Assembly: GCA_025057635.1 (NCBI GenBank)
Contig: JANXBD010000012.1
Coordinates: forward strand, 1-33,702
DNA from: Thermoflexus sp.
Lineage (GTDB): Bacteria > Chloroflexota > Anaerolineae > Thermoflexales > Thermoflexaceae
Direction of reading: 5' to 3'
Length of the DNA stretch: 33,702 nt
The translations under genes and the position numbers were made by a program. Numbering within the stretch: position 1 is the stretch's first letter; each line of letters starts with the position of its first letter. This document shows, in pieces, positions 6,996-25,842 of this stretch. The notes beneath the pieces are model-generated. The model did no database searches and had not been told where the DNA came from. It saw only the letters and a program-made list of their open reading frames with translations.

Positions 6996-7939
6996 GCGGA
7001 CGTCTTGCCTTCGTTTTCCCAGGACAGGGCTCGCAGTATGTGGGGATGGGCCGGGCCCTCTATGAAGCGTTTCCCGAAGCCCGCGAGGTGTTCGAGGAAG
7101 CGGACGACCGGCTGGGTTATGCGCTCTCCCGTCTGTGCTTTGAGGGGCCGGAGTCGCAGCTGAACGACACCTTCTACACCCAACCGGCCATCCTCACGGT
7201 CTCCATCGCCGCCTGGCGGGCCTGGCAGGCCCGGGGCGGGCCCTCGCCGGATCTGGTGGCGGGCCACAGCCTGGGGGAGTTCACCGCGCTGGTGGTAGCG
7301 AGCGCGCTCTCCTTCCCCCATGGCTTATACTTGGTGCAGGAGCGGGGACGCCTGATGAAGTGGGCGGGGGAACAACAGCCGGGGGCCATGGCCGCCGTGC
7401 TGGGGATGGAGCGAGCAGCCCTAGAAAAGATCTGCATAGAGGCTAACCAGGAAACTGGAGAGGTCGTTGTCGTCGCCAATGATAACTGTCCGGGTCAGCT
7501 CGTGATCTCCGGCGGCAAAGCCGCGGTGGCCCGCGCGGGCGAGCTCGCCCGAGGTCGGGGAGCGAAGCGAGTCGTCCCACTGGCGGTCAGCATCGCCGCC
7601 CATTCTCCATTGATGGCTCCGGCGGTAGAGCCCTTCCGGGCCGCGTTGAAGGCCACGCCCTTTCACCCGCCAAGCATCCCGGTGATCAGCAACGTGCAGG
7701 CCCGCCCCCTGCAAAGCACTCCGGAAGACCTGCAGGCGGAGCTGGCCCAGCAGCTGACCGCCCCGGTACGATGGACGGAGAGCGTTCAGTGGATGATGGA
7801 AAACGGCGTTCGGATCTTCGTGGAATTCGGCCCTCGCGATGTGCTGAGCGGCCTAATCCGCCGGATCGCTCCGGAAGCTCGCACCCTTCGGGTGGAGGAT
7901 CCGCAGACCCTAGAGCAGGCTTTGCGGGCGCTTGCTTAG
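6992..7939 (+). CDS. fabD: Malonyl-CoA:ACP transacylase
   Basis: The enzyme transfers malonyl from CoA to acyl carrier protein for fatty acid synthesis. It is 315 aa, the usual length. Motifs are FVFPGQGSQ near the N-terminus, the nucleophile elbow GHSLGEF (Ser93), ERGRLM with the substrate-binding Arg118, and AAHSPLM with the catalytic His204. The start ATG overlaps the previous stop codon and has TAGGAG six bases upstream. No other fab gene lies nearby, and the pairing with a membrane protein gene is unusual for fabD. Confidence 0.95.
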   Translation: MSGRLAFVFPGQGSQYVGMGRALYEAFPEAREVFEEADDRLGYALSRLCFEGPESQLNDTFYTQPAILTVSIAAWRAWQARGGPSPDLVAGHSLGEFTALVVASALSFPHGLYLVQERGRLMKWAGEQQPGAMAAVLGMERAALEKICIEANQETGEVVVVANDNCPGQLVISGGKAAVARAGELARGRGAKRVVPLAVSIAAHSPLMAPAVEPFRAALKATPFHPPSIPVISNVQARPLQSTPEDLQAELAQQLTAPVRWTESVQWMMENGVRIFVEFGPRDVLSGLIRRIAPEARTLRVEDPQTLEQALRALA

Positions 7940-13367: not shown

Positions 13368-14306
13368 TCACGTCACACGATCCAACAAGCCCTCACAGAC
13401 CATCTGCAGACGCTCCCGTGCTCTCATATCCCCTTTTAGAGGAGGTGTTGATCATGAAGGCATTTAGGATTTCGTCCGAGATCCCTTTGGACACTTCCTT
13501 CCAACGCCCTCGGACAACACAAGGTAGAAAGCTCCGCCCCGAGCGCCTTCTCCCCAGTGAGCGACCATACGCGGCGGTAAGAGGATATAGAGCCATAGAA
13601 GGCAGCCTGGGCGCGGACGAATTCCTGCATCTCCATCTCATTCCGGACGGCGACCACGAACACACTGCCGACGAGGGTGAGCTCCTTACAGCTCCTATCT
13701 ACATTCCGCACCCCAAGCCTCAATGGCTGGCGAAAAGGATTTCAAGCAGGTAGCGAGGGGTATGAAAAGGACGACGACAAAGCCATCTCTTACCTCTTCC
13801 GGCCAAGCGGGCCAGCGGAGGGTTTCACCCCGGCCAGCATGAATAGGAATCTGCAGCTCTGGGATCGGCCCCGCATCGAAGAAAGACAACATCAGGGTCA
13901 GGTTGAAGAATCGTCCTCAAATAGCTTAGCCAACCTCCTTGCCGCCAACATGTCTAGAAAACCTGCATCGCCTCGATCGTGTCCCGGAGCTTTATGACGG
14001 GATCTCATGGCATGCCGAAGCGACGTTCGACATAGGCCTCCTCTTGAGTGCGCAGGCCGAGGATCATGTGGCTCAGGATAGCTAGGTCAGATCCTAGCGT
14101 ATAAGCGATCACGGCGGGGCTGCGGGCGAAGGCGATGGCCACGCCAGCCCTCGGGGTGCTCTACCAGACGTGTTCCGTCGCTAGAGCCACGGGAAGCAAA
14201 AGATCATGGCGGATCTCATCGGTCTAGACCCCACTCTCTCCGCCTCACAAGCCAGCGCAGGGATCTTCAGAAACCGGTCGAAGGACAGGATTCTGCCCAG
14301 ATCCAT
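13368..14306 (-). pseudogene. Decayed LLM-class F420-dependent oxidoreductase
   Basis: Read on the minus strand, successive fragments in shifting frames line up in order with a luciferase-like F420-dependent oxidoreductase of about 330 aa. They are: ATG 14306 with KIPALACEAERVG; then LLLPVALATEHVW and a TAG; then VAIAFARSPAVIA; then MILGLRTQEEAYVERRFGMP and a TGA; then IKLRDTIEAMQVF and a TAG; then PELQIPIHAG; then the family motif QAAFYGSISSYRRVW; then GRWKEVSKGISDEILNAF; ending EGLLDRVT at 13368. At least three in-frame stops and several frameshifts make it non-functional. It almost abuts the AAA+ gene start. F420-dependent members use reduced or oxidised F420 on alcohols and aldehydes; the substrate of this one is unknown. 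Confidence 0.85.
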
Positions 14307-17661: not shown

Positions 17662-17667
17662 TATAAT
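17662..17667 (+). promoter_or_regulatory. -10 element before the selenocysteine tRNA
   Basis: A perfect TATAAT ends 12 bases before the first base of the tRNA, the right distance for a start at about 17674. The -35 region (around 17639-17644) is poor. Confidence 0.5.
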
Positions 17668-17679
17668 TCCCTTCAAAGA

Positions 17680-17773
17680 GGGGGCGGTTGGCCTCTGGTG
17701 AGGCCCCCGGTCTTCAAAACCGGTGTCGGGCCGCGGCGCGGCCCGGGGTGGGTTCGATTCCCATCCGCTCCCG
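17680..17773 (+). tRNA. selC: tRNA-Sec (anticodon UCA), selenocysteine
   Basis: The tRNA is 94 nt. The acceptor stem has 8 bp, GGGGGCGG (17680-17687) with CCGCTCCC (17765-17772), one G-U pair, discriminator G17773. The D stem has 6 bp with a 4-base loop, GGCCTC-TGGT-GAGGCC (17690-17705). The anticodon arm is CCGGT-CTTCAAA-ACCGG with TCA at 17714-17716. A long variable arm has an 8-bp stem (17727-17734 with 17738-17745). The T arm is GTGGG-TTCGATT-CCCAT. The 8+5 acceptor-T helix, 6-bp D stem and UCA anticodon together are specific to tRNA-Sec. CCA is not encoded. It delivers Sec at UGA codons with SelA, SelB and SelD, none of which is in this window. Confidence 0.95.
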
Positions 17774-17851
17774 CCTATGAAGAACAGCCGGGGATCGCGC
17801 TCGCTCCGGCCTCATGTGGATGCCTCACCCTGCCTCTGGAGGCGAAAGACG

Positions 17852-18820
17852 ATGCGCGCAGTCCGCATTCACCAGTTCGGCGGCCCCGAGGTCCTTCAGG
17901 TCGATGAAATCCCCACCCCGACCCCTGGCCCCGGCCAGGTCCTGGTTCGATTGCGTGCCATCGGGGTGAATTTTATCGACACCTACCATCGGACCGGCCT
18001 CTACCGGATTTCCCTTCCCTTTATCCCTGGTCAAGAGGGCGCAGGAGAAGTCGCTGCTGTTGGCCCAGGGGTCACCGAGTTCCGGGAAGGGGATCGAGTG
18101 GCTTACGCCGGCGTCTCCGGCTCCTATGCGGAATCCATTGTCGTCCCCGCGGATCGCTTGGTGAAGCTTCCCTCGTCGATCGACTTCCCCCAGGCCGCAG
18201 CTGTTCTCCTACAAGGAATCACCGCTCAGTTCCTGACCCAGAGCACTTATCCCTTGAAACCGGGGGAAACCTGCCTGATCCACGCGGCTGCTGGTGGGGT
18301 GGGAACGCTGCTGGTTCAGATGGCCAAACGCCGGGGCGCCTGGGTGATCGGCACCGTCTCTTCCCCCGCCAAAGCCGAGATCGTCCGCTCCCTTGGGGCT
18401 GACGCGGTCATCCTTTACACCGAACAGGATTTTGAGGCAGAGGTCAAACGCCTTACCGATGGCCGCGGCGTCGATGTGGTTTACGATTCCGTAGGCCAGG
18501 CTACCTTTGAGAAGAGCCTGAACTGCCTCCGACCGCGGGGCTATATGGTGCTCTTCGGGCAATCCAGCGGCCCTGTCCCCCCCATCGATCCGCAGATCTT
18601 AAACCAGAAAGGCTCCCTCTTTTTGACGCGGCCTTCGATGTGGCACTATCTGTTGACCCGCGAGGAGCTGCTCTGGCGGGCCGGAGAAGTGCTCCACCTG
18701 GTCGCCACAGGCCAATTGAAGATCTTCATTGACTCGACGTTCCCACTGGAACAAGCCGCGGAGGCCCACCGTCGGCTGGCTTCCCGCCAGACCGTGGGCA
18801 AATTGCTCCTGATCCCCTAA
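17852..18820 (+). CDS. Quinone oxidoreductase (zinc-free medium-chain dehydrogenase family)
   Basis: The protein is 322 aa. It reduces quinones or enones with NADPH in the cytoplasm. It opens MRAVRIHQFGGPEVLQ, carries the family block VNFIDTYHRTGLY and PGQEGAGEVAAVG, and has the dinucleotide-binding AAAGGVGTLLVQMA in a Rossmann fold near the middle. No structural zinc Cys cluster is present, as expected for quinone oxidoreductases. The reading frame continues upstream through the tRNA gene, but the ATG at 17852 has GGAGG nine bases before it and is the true start. It lies 78 bases after the tRNA-Sec and may share its transcript. Confidence 0.92.
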   Translation: MRAVRIHQFGGPEVLQVDEIPTPTPGPGQVLVRLRAIGVNFIDTYHRTGLYRISLPFIPGQEGAGEVAAVGPGVTEFREGDRVAYAGVSGSYAESIVVPADRLVKLPSSIDFPQAAAVLLQGITAQFLTQSTYPLKPGETCLIHAAAGGVGTLLVQMAKRRGAWVIGTVSSPAKAEIVRSLGADAVILYTEQDFEAEVKRLTDGRGVDVVYDSVGQATFEKSLNCLRPRGYMVLFGQSSGPVPPIDPQILNQKGSLFLTRPSMWHYLLTREELLWRAGEVLHLVATGQLKIFIDSTFPLEQAAEAHRRLASRQTVGKLLLIP

Positions 18821-19868
18821 TGGACTAACGATGTTTGCCTTCGCCGATCTCTCCGGCATTCGATGGTATACCCCCATCGCCTCGGGAGAGGCCGATGGCT
18901 TCATGCAGCCTCCCTTCTCTTGGCACTTAGACGAAGAATCTTCCATCACCGGATTGGATCTCCACAGAACGTTTCGGAAGCAACGCGAAGTGTTCCAAAC
19001 AGAGAGGTGGGAAGCCGTTCGAACCCTGTGCCAGTATCCGAGCGCCACGAGCGTCCGATTGCGAGGTCATCGTCCAGGAACTTCTTCTTCCATCCCCCTA
19101 CAACGCATGGCCGTTCTCACATGTCCCCTCGAAGCTCCTTCCGGCATTCCCACTTGGCGGCCCTGTCGGAATGGATCCCACTCATGGAGCTTCAGCGGAA
19201 CCACCTCCGTGGTGGCCCGGACTTCGGCACCCTTTGGGATACCCTTGGCGCGCCGATGAACTTCTACATAGCTACCTTGCCTAGTCCCCGAGGAGTTCGC
19301 CGAAGTGACCTGGTCGTGGGTTCGGATCCTTCCAGCGGTTACACGGAGGTGGTCGCCTGCACAATGCGTCCCCGGGCAGGCGCACTGACACATTCCAGGT
19401 GGTGTCCCTGACATTCCTACTATACTGGCATACGAGTGAATGATATTCTGGCGAATCTGGAAAGCTTTCGGAAACCGCCTGGGAGTTCGAGTTCTGGTCC
19501 CGCGTCGGGCGACGTATGAAGGGGAGGCTTCAGGCGACTTTGCCGCCCGATGGCGCTGCCCTTCGGGCCTTGCGGCCGATGCAGGCGGGGTTCCAGTGGC
19601 TGGGATCGACCCTCCGTCTGCTGCCAGGGCTGGAGATCATCGGGCTGAAGGAAGCGGAAAACTGCGGGCGGTGGGAATTCCTCCGGGAACCACAGACGGA
19701 GGGAAGGGTCTGGATCTACAGTCCGATCGCCGATCCAGATATTCGCTGGAACGGGAAGCGTGCGAGCACAACAGCGGTGGGATCTGGAATTTACCAAGTG
19801 ACGATCCGAATCCTAGGGTCGAGGATGTCCAGAAGCTTGGAATCCCACGCCGTAGGAGCGGAGGAGCG
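18821..19868. other. About 1 kb with no supported gene
   Basis: Several overlapping open frames on both strands are all longer than 100 codons, which GC-rich DNA produces by chance. None has both a ribosome site and recognisable family sequence. The best-looking frames are minus 19067-19414 (contains GSYVEVHRRAKGIPKGAEV) and plus 19516-19908 (contains LLPGLEIIGLKEAENCGRW), the latter overlapping the dehydrogenase start by 40 bases. Because two other gaps in this window proved to be decayed genes, this stretch may also be a relic too far gone to name. A CGCCTGC/GCAGGCG inverted repeat lies at about 19352-19382. Confidence 0.35.
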
Positions 19869-20996
19869 ATGGAGCTACGCCAACAGAGTCCGTGGGCCAT
19901 CGTGGTGATGGAAGGTGATCAGACCGGGCAGGAACTGCTGGAGGAAGCCCTGCGGGTGTTGGATCCAGGGGTGATCCGTGTTCCTCTACAGTTTCTTCGG
20001 TTCGATCTGAGCCTGGAGAACCGGAGACGCACCCATAATGAAGTGGTGATCGAAGCGGCGGAGGCCATGAAGAAAACCGGCCTGGGCCTGAAGGCGGCCA
20101 CCATCACGCCGGAGGATCCTTCCGACGTGGGCAGCCCCAACGCTCTTCTTCGGGAGCGCATCGACGGCAAGGTGATCCTCCGGGTCGGCCGCCGCATCCC
20201 GGGGGTCCGCCCCATCGGCGGCGTGGTGGGGCCTGTGGCCATCGTGCGCATGGCCGTGGAGGACGCTTATCACGCGCAGGAGTGGCGGGAAGGAGAAGGC
20301 CTTGGGGAGACGGCCTACCGCCTAGATCGCATCACGAGGGGGACCTGCCGAGCGGTGGCGGAGTTCGCCTTCTGGTATGCACGGCGCATTGGGGCCAAGG
20401 TCTTCGGCGGGCCGAAGTGGACGGTGAGCCGGATCTACGAAGGGATGTTCAAAGAGGAACTGGACGCAGCGGCCCGTCGCTATCCGGACGTGCGTTACGA
20501 GCCTCAGCTCATCGACGCCACCCTGGCCCTCCTCTTCACCCGCGCCGCCGAGCCACTGGTGATCCCATGTCTCAACCGTGACGGTGACCTGCTCAGCGAC
20601 CTCATCCTCCAGATGTTCGGTTCCATTGCGGGGAGCGAGTCCCTGCTCCTCTCATTTGACGAACATTTGCGGATCCAGGTGGTGATGGCGGAAGCTCCTC
20701 ATGGCACCGCCCCGGCGCTTTACCGCAAAAACATCGCCAACCCGATGGCGATGATCTTGGCAGGGGCCGCTCTGCTCTCGTTCATCGAGGATGAGGCCGC
20801 CCAGCGAGCTAGCCGCGCCATTTACGAGGCGGTCTTCGAAAGCGTCTACGACGGGATTGCCACCGCGGATCTGGGGGGCTCGGCGACCACCACCGAGTTC
20901 ACCGATGCAGTGATCCGCCGGGTGACCCGCAAACTGGAGGTGTGGGAGGCCCTTCGGCTCACCGGAAGCACCGCTGTCCACCCCTTGGGATCCTAG
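19869..20996 (+). CDS. Isocitrate/isopropylmalate dehydrogenase family protein
   Basis: The protein is 375 aa. It starts MELRQQSPWAIVVMEGDQTG, the family's GDGIG-type loop. It then has KAATITPE and SPNALLRERIDG, which match the substrate-binding region of NADP-isocitrate dehydrogenases, the Arg-rich VILRVGRRIPGV, a VRMAVEDAY block, metal-site Asps in LIDATLALL and NRDGDLLSD, and the cofactor loop AEAPHGTAPALYRK. The most likely reaction is oxidative decarboxylation of isocitrate to 2-oxoglutarate; a related hydroxyacid cannot be excluded. The frame is open from 19440, but the ATG at 19869 has GGAGGAG directly upstream. It is followed without a gap by the amidohydrolase relic. Confidence 0.85.
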   Translation: MELRQQSPWAIVVMEGDQTGQELLEEALRVLDPGVIRVPLQFLRFDLSLENRRRTHNEVVIEAAEAMKKTGLGLKAATITPEDPSDVGSPNALLRERIDGKVILRVGRRIPGVRPIGGVVGPVAIVRMAVEDAYHAQEWREGEGLGETAYRLDRITRGTCRAVAEFAFWYARRIGAKVFGGPKWTVSRIYEGMFKEELDAAARRYPDVRYEPQLIDATLALLFTRAAEPLVIPCLNRDGDLLSDLILQMFGSIAGSESLLLSFDEHLRIQVVMAEAPHGTAPALYRKNIANPMAMILAGAALLSFIEDEAAQRASRAIYEAVFESVYDGIATADLGGSATTTEFTDAVIRRVTRKLEVWEALRLTGSTAVHPLGS

Positions 20997-24390: not shown

Positions 24391-24543
24391 GATATATGGA
24401 GATGTTGCGGTTGCAGCCCCCTAGGGCGGCCTCGAAGGGCTTCAGAGGAAGCCTAAGGCATCCCTTCATGTTCTCCGCTCGGTTCCGGTTTCCGTCTCAG
24501 AGCGGACATGAATCGGCTCGAGGGTTTCTGGAGGGGAGCCGAA
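24391..24543 (+). promoter_or_regulatory. Structured leader of moeA, possible cis-regulatory RNA
   Basis: Two clean hairpins are visible: GGCTTC-AGAG-GAAGCC (24438-24453) and TCCGCTC/GAGCGGA (24474-24480 with 24500-24506, 19-base loop). TATGG (about 24393) and CCTAAG (24451-24456) are the two halves of an 11-nt tetraloop receptor, but the flanking pairing I would expect is weak. A molybdenum-cofactor riboswitch or other leader control is possible; I cannot fit the known consensus by eye. A short open frame from 24396 overlaps moeA and is not supported. Confidence 0.35.
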
Positions 24544-25842
24544 ATGACCACCCTTCGGGAAGGGCTAGGGGTTGGCGAAGCTCGACAGATGATTTTGGAG
24601 GAATTCGGACCGCTTCCTCCCGAATCCGTGACGCTATCGCAGGCCCTAGGACGGGTTCTGGCGGAGGCTGTCCGGGCGGAGCATGATCTCCCGCCATTTC
24701 CAAACTCCGCTATGGACGGATACGCGGTGCGCGCTATAGACACAGAAGGAGCGCGACCGGAACATCCGATTCACCTGCGGGTGATAGGAGAGGCAGCTGC
24801 TGGCCATCCATTTTCTGGAGCAATCGAGCCTGGGACGACAGTGCGAATCGCCACCGGAGCGTTGCTTCCCGCCGGGGCGGATGCCGTAGTCCCAGTGGAG
24901 GATACCAATGACCGATGGGGCCCGGGCCATCCCCTTCCCCTAATGATCGCAGTCTTCCGAGCCGTCCGGCCAGGCGAGTTCGTCCGACCGGCTGGAGAGG
25001 ACGTGGCTCGAGGAACGATCGTGCTGGAGCCAGGCACTGTGCTCATGCCCGGCGCGCTGGCCTTGCTGGCCGCTTTGGGCCGCCTTGAGATTTTAGTGCA
25101 TCGCCGCCCTCGGGTAGCTCTGTTAGCAATCGGCGACGAGCTGATTGAGCCCGGTCAGTCCCTTCCCCCAGGTTGCATCTATGAGACCAACCGGACGGCC
25201 TTGGCTGCCCAGGTCCTAGAGGCAGGAGGGGAACCCATCGTGCTGGGGATCGCTCGGGATGACCCGGAGGATCTGCAACGGCTGCTCGATGAAGCGGCTG
25301 CGCACCGTTCCGATTTGATCGTCTCCTCAGCGGGGGCTTCCGTCGGTGCTCATGATTGGGTAAAGGAGGTGGTGAGTCGTCATGGCGAGATCCGCCTCTG
25401 GAAAGTCCGCATCCGTCCGGGGAAGCCCTTTGCGTTTGGGTATTATCGAGGGATTCCATTCTTCGGACTGCCTGGCAATCCGGTCTCTGCCATGATTACC
25501 TTTGATCAATTCGTCCGCCCCGCTCTGCGCCGGATGGGTGGTTATCCCCGCTGGGGACGACTACGCATCCCAGCGCGCCTGACCGAGCCGGTTTCCAGTG
25601 ATGGGCGTGAGACTTATTTCCGAGCTCGGATTACCTACGAGGATGGCCAATTCCAGGCCCGCTTGAGCGGGCTTCAGGGCTCTCACAATCTAAGCGCTAT
25701 GGCTTGGGCAAACGGCTGGGTGATCCTCGCGGAGGGCATTCGGGCTCTCCCAGCCGGCGCAACGATTATGGCGGAAGTTTGGACTGACTTACAGGATTTG
25801 ATCGATACCGTGGAGGTCTCGCTATCATCCTACAACCCCTGA
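24544..25842 (+). CDS. moeA: Molybdopterin molybdenumtransferase
   Basis: The enzyme inserts molybdate into adenylated molybdopterin to finish molybdenum cofactor. It is 432 aa. Seen are LPPFPNSAMDGYAVRA near residue 50, GALLPAGADAVVPVED, and the central MoCF domain with ALLAIGDELIEPGQ, YETNRTAL and SSAGASVGAHDWV (usual form GGVSVGDxD). Then come IRPGKPFAFG and GLPGNPVSAM, and a C-terminal beta domain. GGAGGGGAG precedes the ATG; an upstream in-frame ATG at 24508 is less likely. A promoter and a structured leader precede it, and the DsbA-like gene follows after 10 bases. Confidence 0.95.
   Translation: MTTLREGLGVGEARQMILEEFGPLPPESVTLSQALGRVLAEAVRAEHDLPPFPNSAMDGYAVRAIDTEGARPEHPIHLRVIGEAAAGHPFSGAIEPGTTVRIATGALLPAGADAVVPVEDTNDRWGPGHPLPLMIAVFRAVRPGEFVRPAGEDVARGTIVLEPGTVLMPGALALLAALGRLEILVHRRPRVALLAIGDELIEPGQSLPPGCIYETNRTALAAQVLEAGGEPIVLGIARDDPEDLQRLLDEAAAHRSDLIVSSAGASVGAHDWVKEVVSRHGEIRLWKVRIRPGKPFAFGYYRGIPFFGLPGNPVSAMITFDQFVRPALRRMGGYPRWGRLRIPARLTEPVSSDGRETYFRARITYEDGQFQARLSGLQGSHNLSAMAWANGWVILAEGIRALPAGATIMAEVWTDLQDLIDTVEVSLSSYNP

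Follow-up and report, generated by a model that had tools for sequence, protein, structure and literature searches.

The bacterial selenocysteine (Sec) decoding trait consists of tRNA-Sec together with SelA, SelB and SelD (Zhang 2006, PMC1794560; Peng 2016, PMC5029168), and all four parts are present in Thermoflexus, where their genes are scattered rather than clustered. The Sec-containing formate dehydrogenase FdhA is the commonest selenoprotein of bacteria (PMC1794560, table 1). SelD as the single selenoprotein, or Sec-SelD without Sec-FdhA, has already been described, and most Sec users without Sec-FdhA possess the selenouridine trait (PMC1794560). Prx-like selenoproteins with a UxxC motif are also described (PMC13188914). 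Anaerolineales are already recorded as Sec users, some of their formate dehydrogenases having been annotated with Sec (PMC4959059), and a literature search for selenocysteine and Thermoflexus together returned only this paper, in which Thermoflexus is merely a reference genome. A reference given in that paper describes Thermoflexus as thermophilic, microaerophilic Chloroflexi of the class Thermoflexia.

The DNA analyzed here, called the window, is a stretch of 33,702 nt that forms contig C33 of a Thermoflexus MAG (1.9 Mb, 76.65% complete, 201 contigs; designated G000). The protein encoded beside the tRNA gene shares 94-99% identity with Thermoflexus records, most closely isolate SKYG36, which marks the source as a Thermoflexus species. 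Current genome taxonomy assigns the genus to Anaerolineae. Nine Thermoflexus genomes were compared, including eight congeners, among them the single-contig genome G005. The locus is, with high confidence, the single selC of a hot-spring Thermoflexus species acting in the standard bacterial Sec pathway, with SelD and an exported fusion protein of G000 as likely clients.

Structure of the tRNA-Sec gene

ARAGORN calls one tRNA in the window, tRNA-SeC with anticodon tca at 17680-17775(+), and Rfam cmscan matches the tRNA-Sec family RF01852 at 17680-17772(+) with 78.1 bits (E 1.2e-14) over model positions 1-91, the full length of the model, clearing the gathering cut-off of 47 bits. The initial annotation had read tRNA-Sec from a UCA anticodon, an 8-bp acceptor, a 6-bp D stem with a 4-base loop and an 8-bp variable arm, and had proposed ARAGORN and the Sec covariance model as checks; both programs agree with it, and every one of these marks holds. 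Coordinates are collected in the table.

Features of the tRNA-Sec locus and of the fusion gene proposed as its client (window positions unless a contig or locus is named)
Feature	Position	Strand	Evidence
Probable -10 box TATAAT, promoter of the tRNA gene itself	17662..17667	+	sequence
tRNA-Sec (selC), UCA anticodon	17680..17772	+	ARAGORN, Rfam RF01852, covarying structure
Acceptor stem, 5' side, 8 bp with 17765-17772	17680..17687	+	sequence, covariation
D arm: 6-bp stem 17690-17695 / 17700-17705, 4-base loop TGGT	17690..17705	+	covariation
Anticodon TCA (UCA), loop CTTCAAA, 5-bp anticodon stem	17714..17716	+	ARAGORN, Rfam
Long variable arm, 8 bp 17727-17734 / 17738-17745, loop GGC	17727..17745	+	covariation
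T arm (5-bp stem 17748-17752 / 17760-17764) and 3' acceptor strand	17748..17772	+	sequence, covariation
Discriminator G; CCA not encoded, GCCT instead	17773..17773	+	sequence
Quinone oxidoreductase/zinc-binding dehydrogenase, not selenium-related	17855..18820	+	Pfam, tblastn synteny
moeA	24508..25842	+	Pfam MoeA_N, MoCF_biosynth, MoeA_C
SurA_N + ResA-like + AhpC/TSA fusion, in-frame TGA	G000 C123:5453-7426 (L226:2454-4427)	-	reading frame, Pfam
Fusion gene in two congeners	L227:2-481; L228:839-2680		reading frame

Covariation was assessed in an alignment of the window gene with 12 relatives (13 rows, 11 distinct), in which 32 pairs were counted. Overall 97.7% of cells are paired and 14 of the 32 pairs show changes on both sides, giving a covariation of 0.41, far above the 0.16 obtained by shuffling (0/500) and the values, 0.10 at most, obtained by sliding the structure. 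The acceptor helix, which contains one G-U among its 8 bp, is 97.7% paired with both-side changes at three pairs; the D-stem helix is 100% paired with such changes at four pairs; and the variable-arm helix, whose strands CGGGCCGC and GCGGCCCG form eight perfect pairs in the window gene, is 93% paired with both-side changes in six of eight pairs. The T stem is invariant and the UCA anticodon does not vary among the relatives aligned. The acceptor-T stack of 8+5 = 13 bp is that of bacterial tRNA-Sec, and the discriminator G is found in the congeners too. Set against bacterial tRNA-Sec generally (RF01852; selC), the gene has the same UCA anticodon, 8-bp acceptor, 6-bp D stem, long variable arm and G discriminator and no structural difference; CCA is unencoded in the Thermoflexus gene.

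A tRNA-Sec-like class II tRNA with another job, as an allo-tRNA or a serine UGA suppressor, would also have the long variable arm, which is common to class II tRNAs, and the Sec model scores tRNA-Ser genes as high as 50 bits. Such an identity is extremely unlikely here: the window gene scores 78 bits against the 50 of a tRNA-Ser in the same genome; it combines the 8+5 stack, 6-bp D stem, UCA anticodon and G discriminator; and it co-occurs with selA, and in congeners with selB and selD as well. By its sequence, the feature appears to be an ordinary, working selC gene, present as a single copy.

The TATAAT sequence lies 12 bases upstream of the tRNA gene, and TATAAT is also found upstream in six congeners (G001, G003, G004, G005, G006 and G007). 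A consensus promoter scan near the gene finds no good -35 and no complete sigma-70 match, and the promoter is for that reason graded as probable only.

Distribution of the Sec machinery

The initial annotation had found no other selenium genes beside the tRNA, and searches of the G000 contigs agree: selA, selB and selD are all absent from C33. An intact selA lies on contig C135 (556.7 bits, E 1.7e-167, above the cut-off), with the Pfam SelA domain and its N-terminal domain. No selB or selD was found anywhere in the 76.65%-complete MAG, so that the genome search proposed earlier is answered in G000 for selA alone, and for all three genes in G005, whose single contig carries tRNA-Sec, selA, selB (326 bits) and selD. 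The selB-like and selD-like matches in G000 were rejected on reading as IF-2, LepA, EF-G and EF-Tu fragments, a SelD-related AIR-synthase protein and PurD.

Loss of selB and selD was tested against gaps in the assembly by taking the neighborhoods of both genes from G005 and searching them in G000. On one flank of the selB interval, contig C182 ends at its last base, 5682, within mutL; on the opposite flank, C116 ends at its last base, 25875, within the flanking gene. In the selD neighborhood, the adjacent kinase gene is cut off about 16 bp before its end, at base 7762, the last of C172. The expected sites of both genes therefore coincide with contig ends, placing both in assembly gaps, and from these breaks and the congeners we infer that selB and selD are present in the unsequenced gaps of G000. 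Across the genus, selB is present in seven of the eight congeners. The alternative that the Sec system is decaying in this species, selB and selD being truly lost and the tRNA and selA being relics, draws on the failure to find the two genes and on yqeB, which is decayed in G000 (six stops in 121 codons, C129:12353-12715; L229 near 1354-1716) and intact in most congeners. It is nevertheless very improbable, since both missing genes fall exactly at contig ends, the tRNA is undamaged and covarying, selA is intact, and the fusion gene described below retains its UGA, its reading frame and its hairpin.

Counted from the matches listed, tRNA-Sec scores above 60 bits in 78 of the 100 genomes of the class, and selA is above its cut-off in 87 of 100. 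Two of the nine Thermoflexus genomes, G002 and G008, have no full tRNA-Sec above 60 bits, yet G008 has selA, selB and selD; incomplete assembly is the likely cause in both, a split gene being the other candidate. The second RF01852 match in G000 (C180, 50 bits) is tRNA-Ser(UGA), not tRNA-Sec; this is the one lower-scoring match checked, and the others in the class search also look tRNA-Ser-like.

In the pathway as we reconstruct it, seryl-tRNA synthetase would charge tRNA-Sec with serine, SelA would convert the serine to Sec on the tRNA with selenophosphate from SelD, and SelB would deliver the resulting Sec-tRNA to those UGA codons that precede a bSECIS hairpin, where recoding is presumed. 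The likely clients would be SelD itself and, in G000, the SurA_N/ResA-like/peroxiredoxin-like fusion, presumably exported and carrying Sec in the final domain. The earlier proposal that the organism decodes some UGA codons as Sec gains from selA in G000, the full machinery in G005, the UGA in congener selD genes, and the UGA-containing redox gene of G000 with its SECIS-like hairpin.

SelD as a probable selenoprotein

An in-frame TGA (CAG-U-ASK) occurs in selD of six of the eight Thermoflexus congeners, and in other members of the class too. Because selD carries this codon, SelD itself would be a selenoprotein in the congeners, a feature that Thermoflexus would share with other Sec users without Sec-FdhA.

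Two further observations concern selD neighborhoods. Another genome of the class, G009, has two tandem selD genes, each with an in-frame TGA (C278:12537-13469 and 13770-14252; L060/L070), and in G005 an RtcB-like gene of 996 codons with an intein-like middle lies near selD (L073:5619-8609).

Formate dehydrogenase and other selenium traits

The initial annotation had suggested a molybdenum- and Sec-dependent formate dehydrogenase as a natural client, pointing to moeA 7 kb from the tRNA. That tRNA-Sec serves Sec insertion into formate dehydrogenase would accord with Sec-FdhA being so common in bacteria, with the Sec-annotated formate dehydrogenases of some Anaerolineales, and with this proximity. 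However, among the PF00384 molybdopterin oxidoreductase matches of the nine Thermoflexus genomes, the single-contig G005 included, none has an internal stop, and one member of the family is FdhF/YdeP-like (TIGR01701) and falls below the Fdh-alpha cut-off. The moeA gene is real, but its linkage is not conserved: in G004 and G005, two well-assembled congeners, no moeA lies closer than about 10 kb to tRNA-Sec, and the link is left unsupported. Because no molybdopterin oxidoreductase has an internal stop, the idea fails where it can be tested, and a formate dehydrogenase client is highly improbable. In G006, rplY lies about 8 kb downstream of tRNA-Sec, with no moeA within the stretch compared.

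The selenouridine trait was sought through SelU/YbbB (TIGR03167). None was found, the searches returning only a 24-residue rhodanese-like stretch of at most 24.5 bits against a cut-off of 219.75, in which respect Thermoflexus differs from most Sec users without Sec-FdhA.

For the Se-cofactor trait (YqeB/YqeC), an intact YqeB-like gene (TIGR03309) is matched in G005 with 359 bits against 220 (L230:6953-7753). This YqeB-type maturation gene, of the selenium-dependent molybdenum hydroxylase kind, would represent a different selenium-molybdenum link in Thermoflexus.

A peroxiredoxin-like fusion as candidate client

Clients were searched for with a pool of 13 E. coli redox and selenium proteins plus SelD as queries; the search yielded one convincing client in G000, the fusion gene on C123. 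Its domains follow in the order SurA_N-like, ResA-like (CPVC) and AhpC/TSA, with the TGA in the active site of the last. The Pfam AhpC-TSA match covers residues 511-635 and so spans the TGA at residue ~550 of the G000 protein. The active site reads SPG-U-GPC in G000 and G003 and SPT-U-GTC in G002. Downstream of the TGA, 21 of the 31 differences between G000 and G003 are at third positions, and this predominance indicates that the frame stays coding past the TGA. Against NCBIfam models, ResA is the sole cut-off that the protein reaches. The protein would be exported and would have a redox function.

A hairpin, CAGCTC-GGC-GAGCTG, lies 18-32 bases 3' of the TGA and is identical in three species, synonymous sites included, with a G in the apical loop. 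Its form and its spacing after UGA are those expected of a bacterial SECIS. Since the comparison comprises three sequences and shows no compensatory change, the SECIS remains a prediction. An Rfam scan of loci L226 and L057 gave no match reaching the gathering score, whether to a SECIS or to any other family; Rfam's coverage of bacterial SECIS elements is poor.

As a UGA gene of G000 with a candidate bacterial SECIS hairpin, the fusion appears to be a better client than formate dehydrogenase. It shares with the Prx-like thiol:disulfide oxidoreductase selenoproteins (UxxC, PF00578; PMC13188914) an AhpC/TSA domain with UxxC (SPG-U-GPC) and differs from them in that this domain is fused behind SurA_N and ResA-like (CPVC) domains. 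No description of a SurA_N-ResA-(Sec)peroxiredoxin architecture was found in the literature searched. The probable clients of tRNA-Sec are SelD, the selenium-donor enzyme, and a redox protein that contains selenium, not formate dehydrogenase.

Other frames with an apparent internal TGA (GlpC-like in G005, glutaredoxin in G008, YqeB in G001) were, on reading, ordinary gene-end stops or frames upstream of the gene. Among the genes of the window, inspection by eye finds none that ends in a TGA reading on into a recognizable redox domain. The scan for in-frame UGA suggested by the initial annotation was productive for selD in congeners and for the peroxiredoxin-like fusion with its hairpin in G000, and unproductive for formate dehydrogenase-type genes; the accompanying warning that UGA genes may be annotated as short or broken was well founded, since congener selD and the G000 fusion gene both carry such codons.

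A probable element integrated at tRNA-Sec

The quinone oxidoreductase gene adjoins tRNA-Sec in six of the seven Thermoflexus genomes that have an intact tRNA-Sec. Between it and an isocitrate/isopropylmalate-type dehydrogenase gene, the window has about 1 kb (18831-19880) with only overlapping small ORFs; the counterpart in G003 is about 2.6 kb.

In T. tengchongensis (L090:1-2853), only the 3' half of tRNA-Sec stands upstream of the quinone oxidoreductase gene, and in G001 C72 (L077:12059-16553) an intact tRNA-Sec is followed just downstream by a tyrosine integrase gene. The two tRNA-Sec copies share a 66-bp identical direct repeat running from the anticodon loop to the end of the gene, and paired CTGACAGCAT repeats lie near both copies. 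The partial and intact copies, the 66-bp repeat and the integrase are the signature of an element integrated into tRNA-Sec that restores the gene; VRR-NUC and AAA genes lie inside it. The G001 C72 and T. tengchongensis quinone oxidoreductase records have 127 identical end bases in common. The element's length, at least ~7 kb, is provisional because these bases could be part of a repeated insertion sequence. Neither such a repeat nor a partial tRNA copy is seen in the window, and the site there is accordingly taken to be empty.

Integrative elements occur in E. coli selC. The T. tengchongensis element resembles them in the tyrosine integrase beside tRNA-Sec and the direct repeat covering the 3' half of the tRNA, and differs in its unrelated host and cargo.

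Conclusions

Both tRNA-Sec and the Sec trait are familiar; what is newer here is the candidate selenoprotein fusion and the site of integration. We hold it to be somewhat better than an even proposition that Thermoflexus combines a standard Sec pathway with unusual clients, a self-supplying Sec-SelD and an exported fusion, without Sec-formate dehydrogenase or selenouridine, and that the tRNA-Sec of one species also serves as an attachment site. That the Sec tRNA stands alone in the window reflects the scattering of the genes and gaps in the assembly rather than an orphan system, and the tempting formate dehydrogenase explanation is removed. A thermophilic Chloroflexota genus joins the Sec users, two of its UGA genes, selD and the redox fusion, call for re-annotation, and the candidate fusion selenoprotein offers a testable new architecture.
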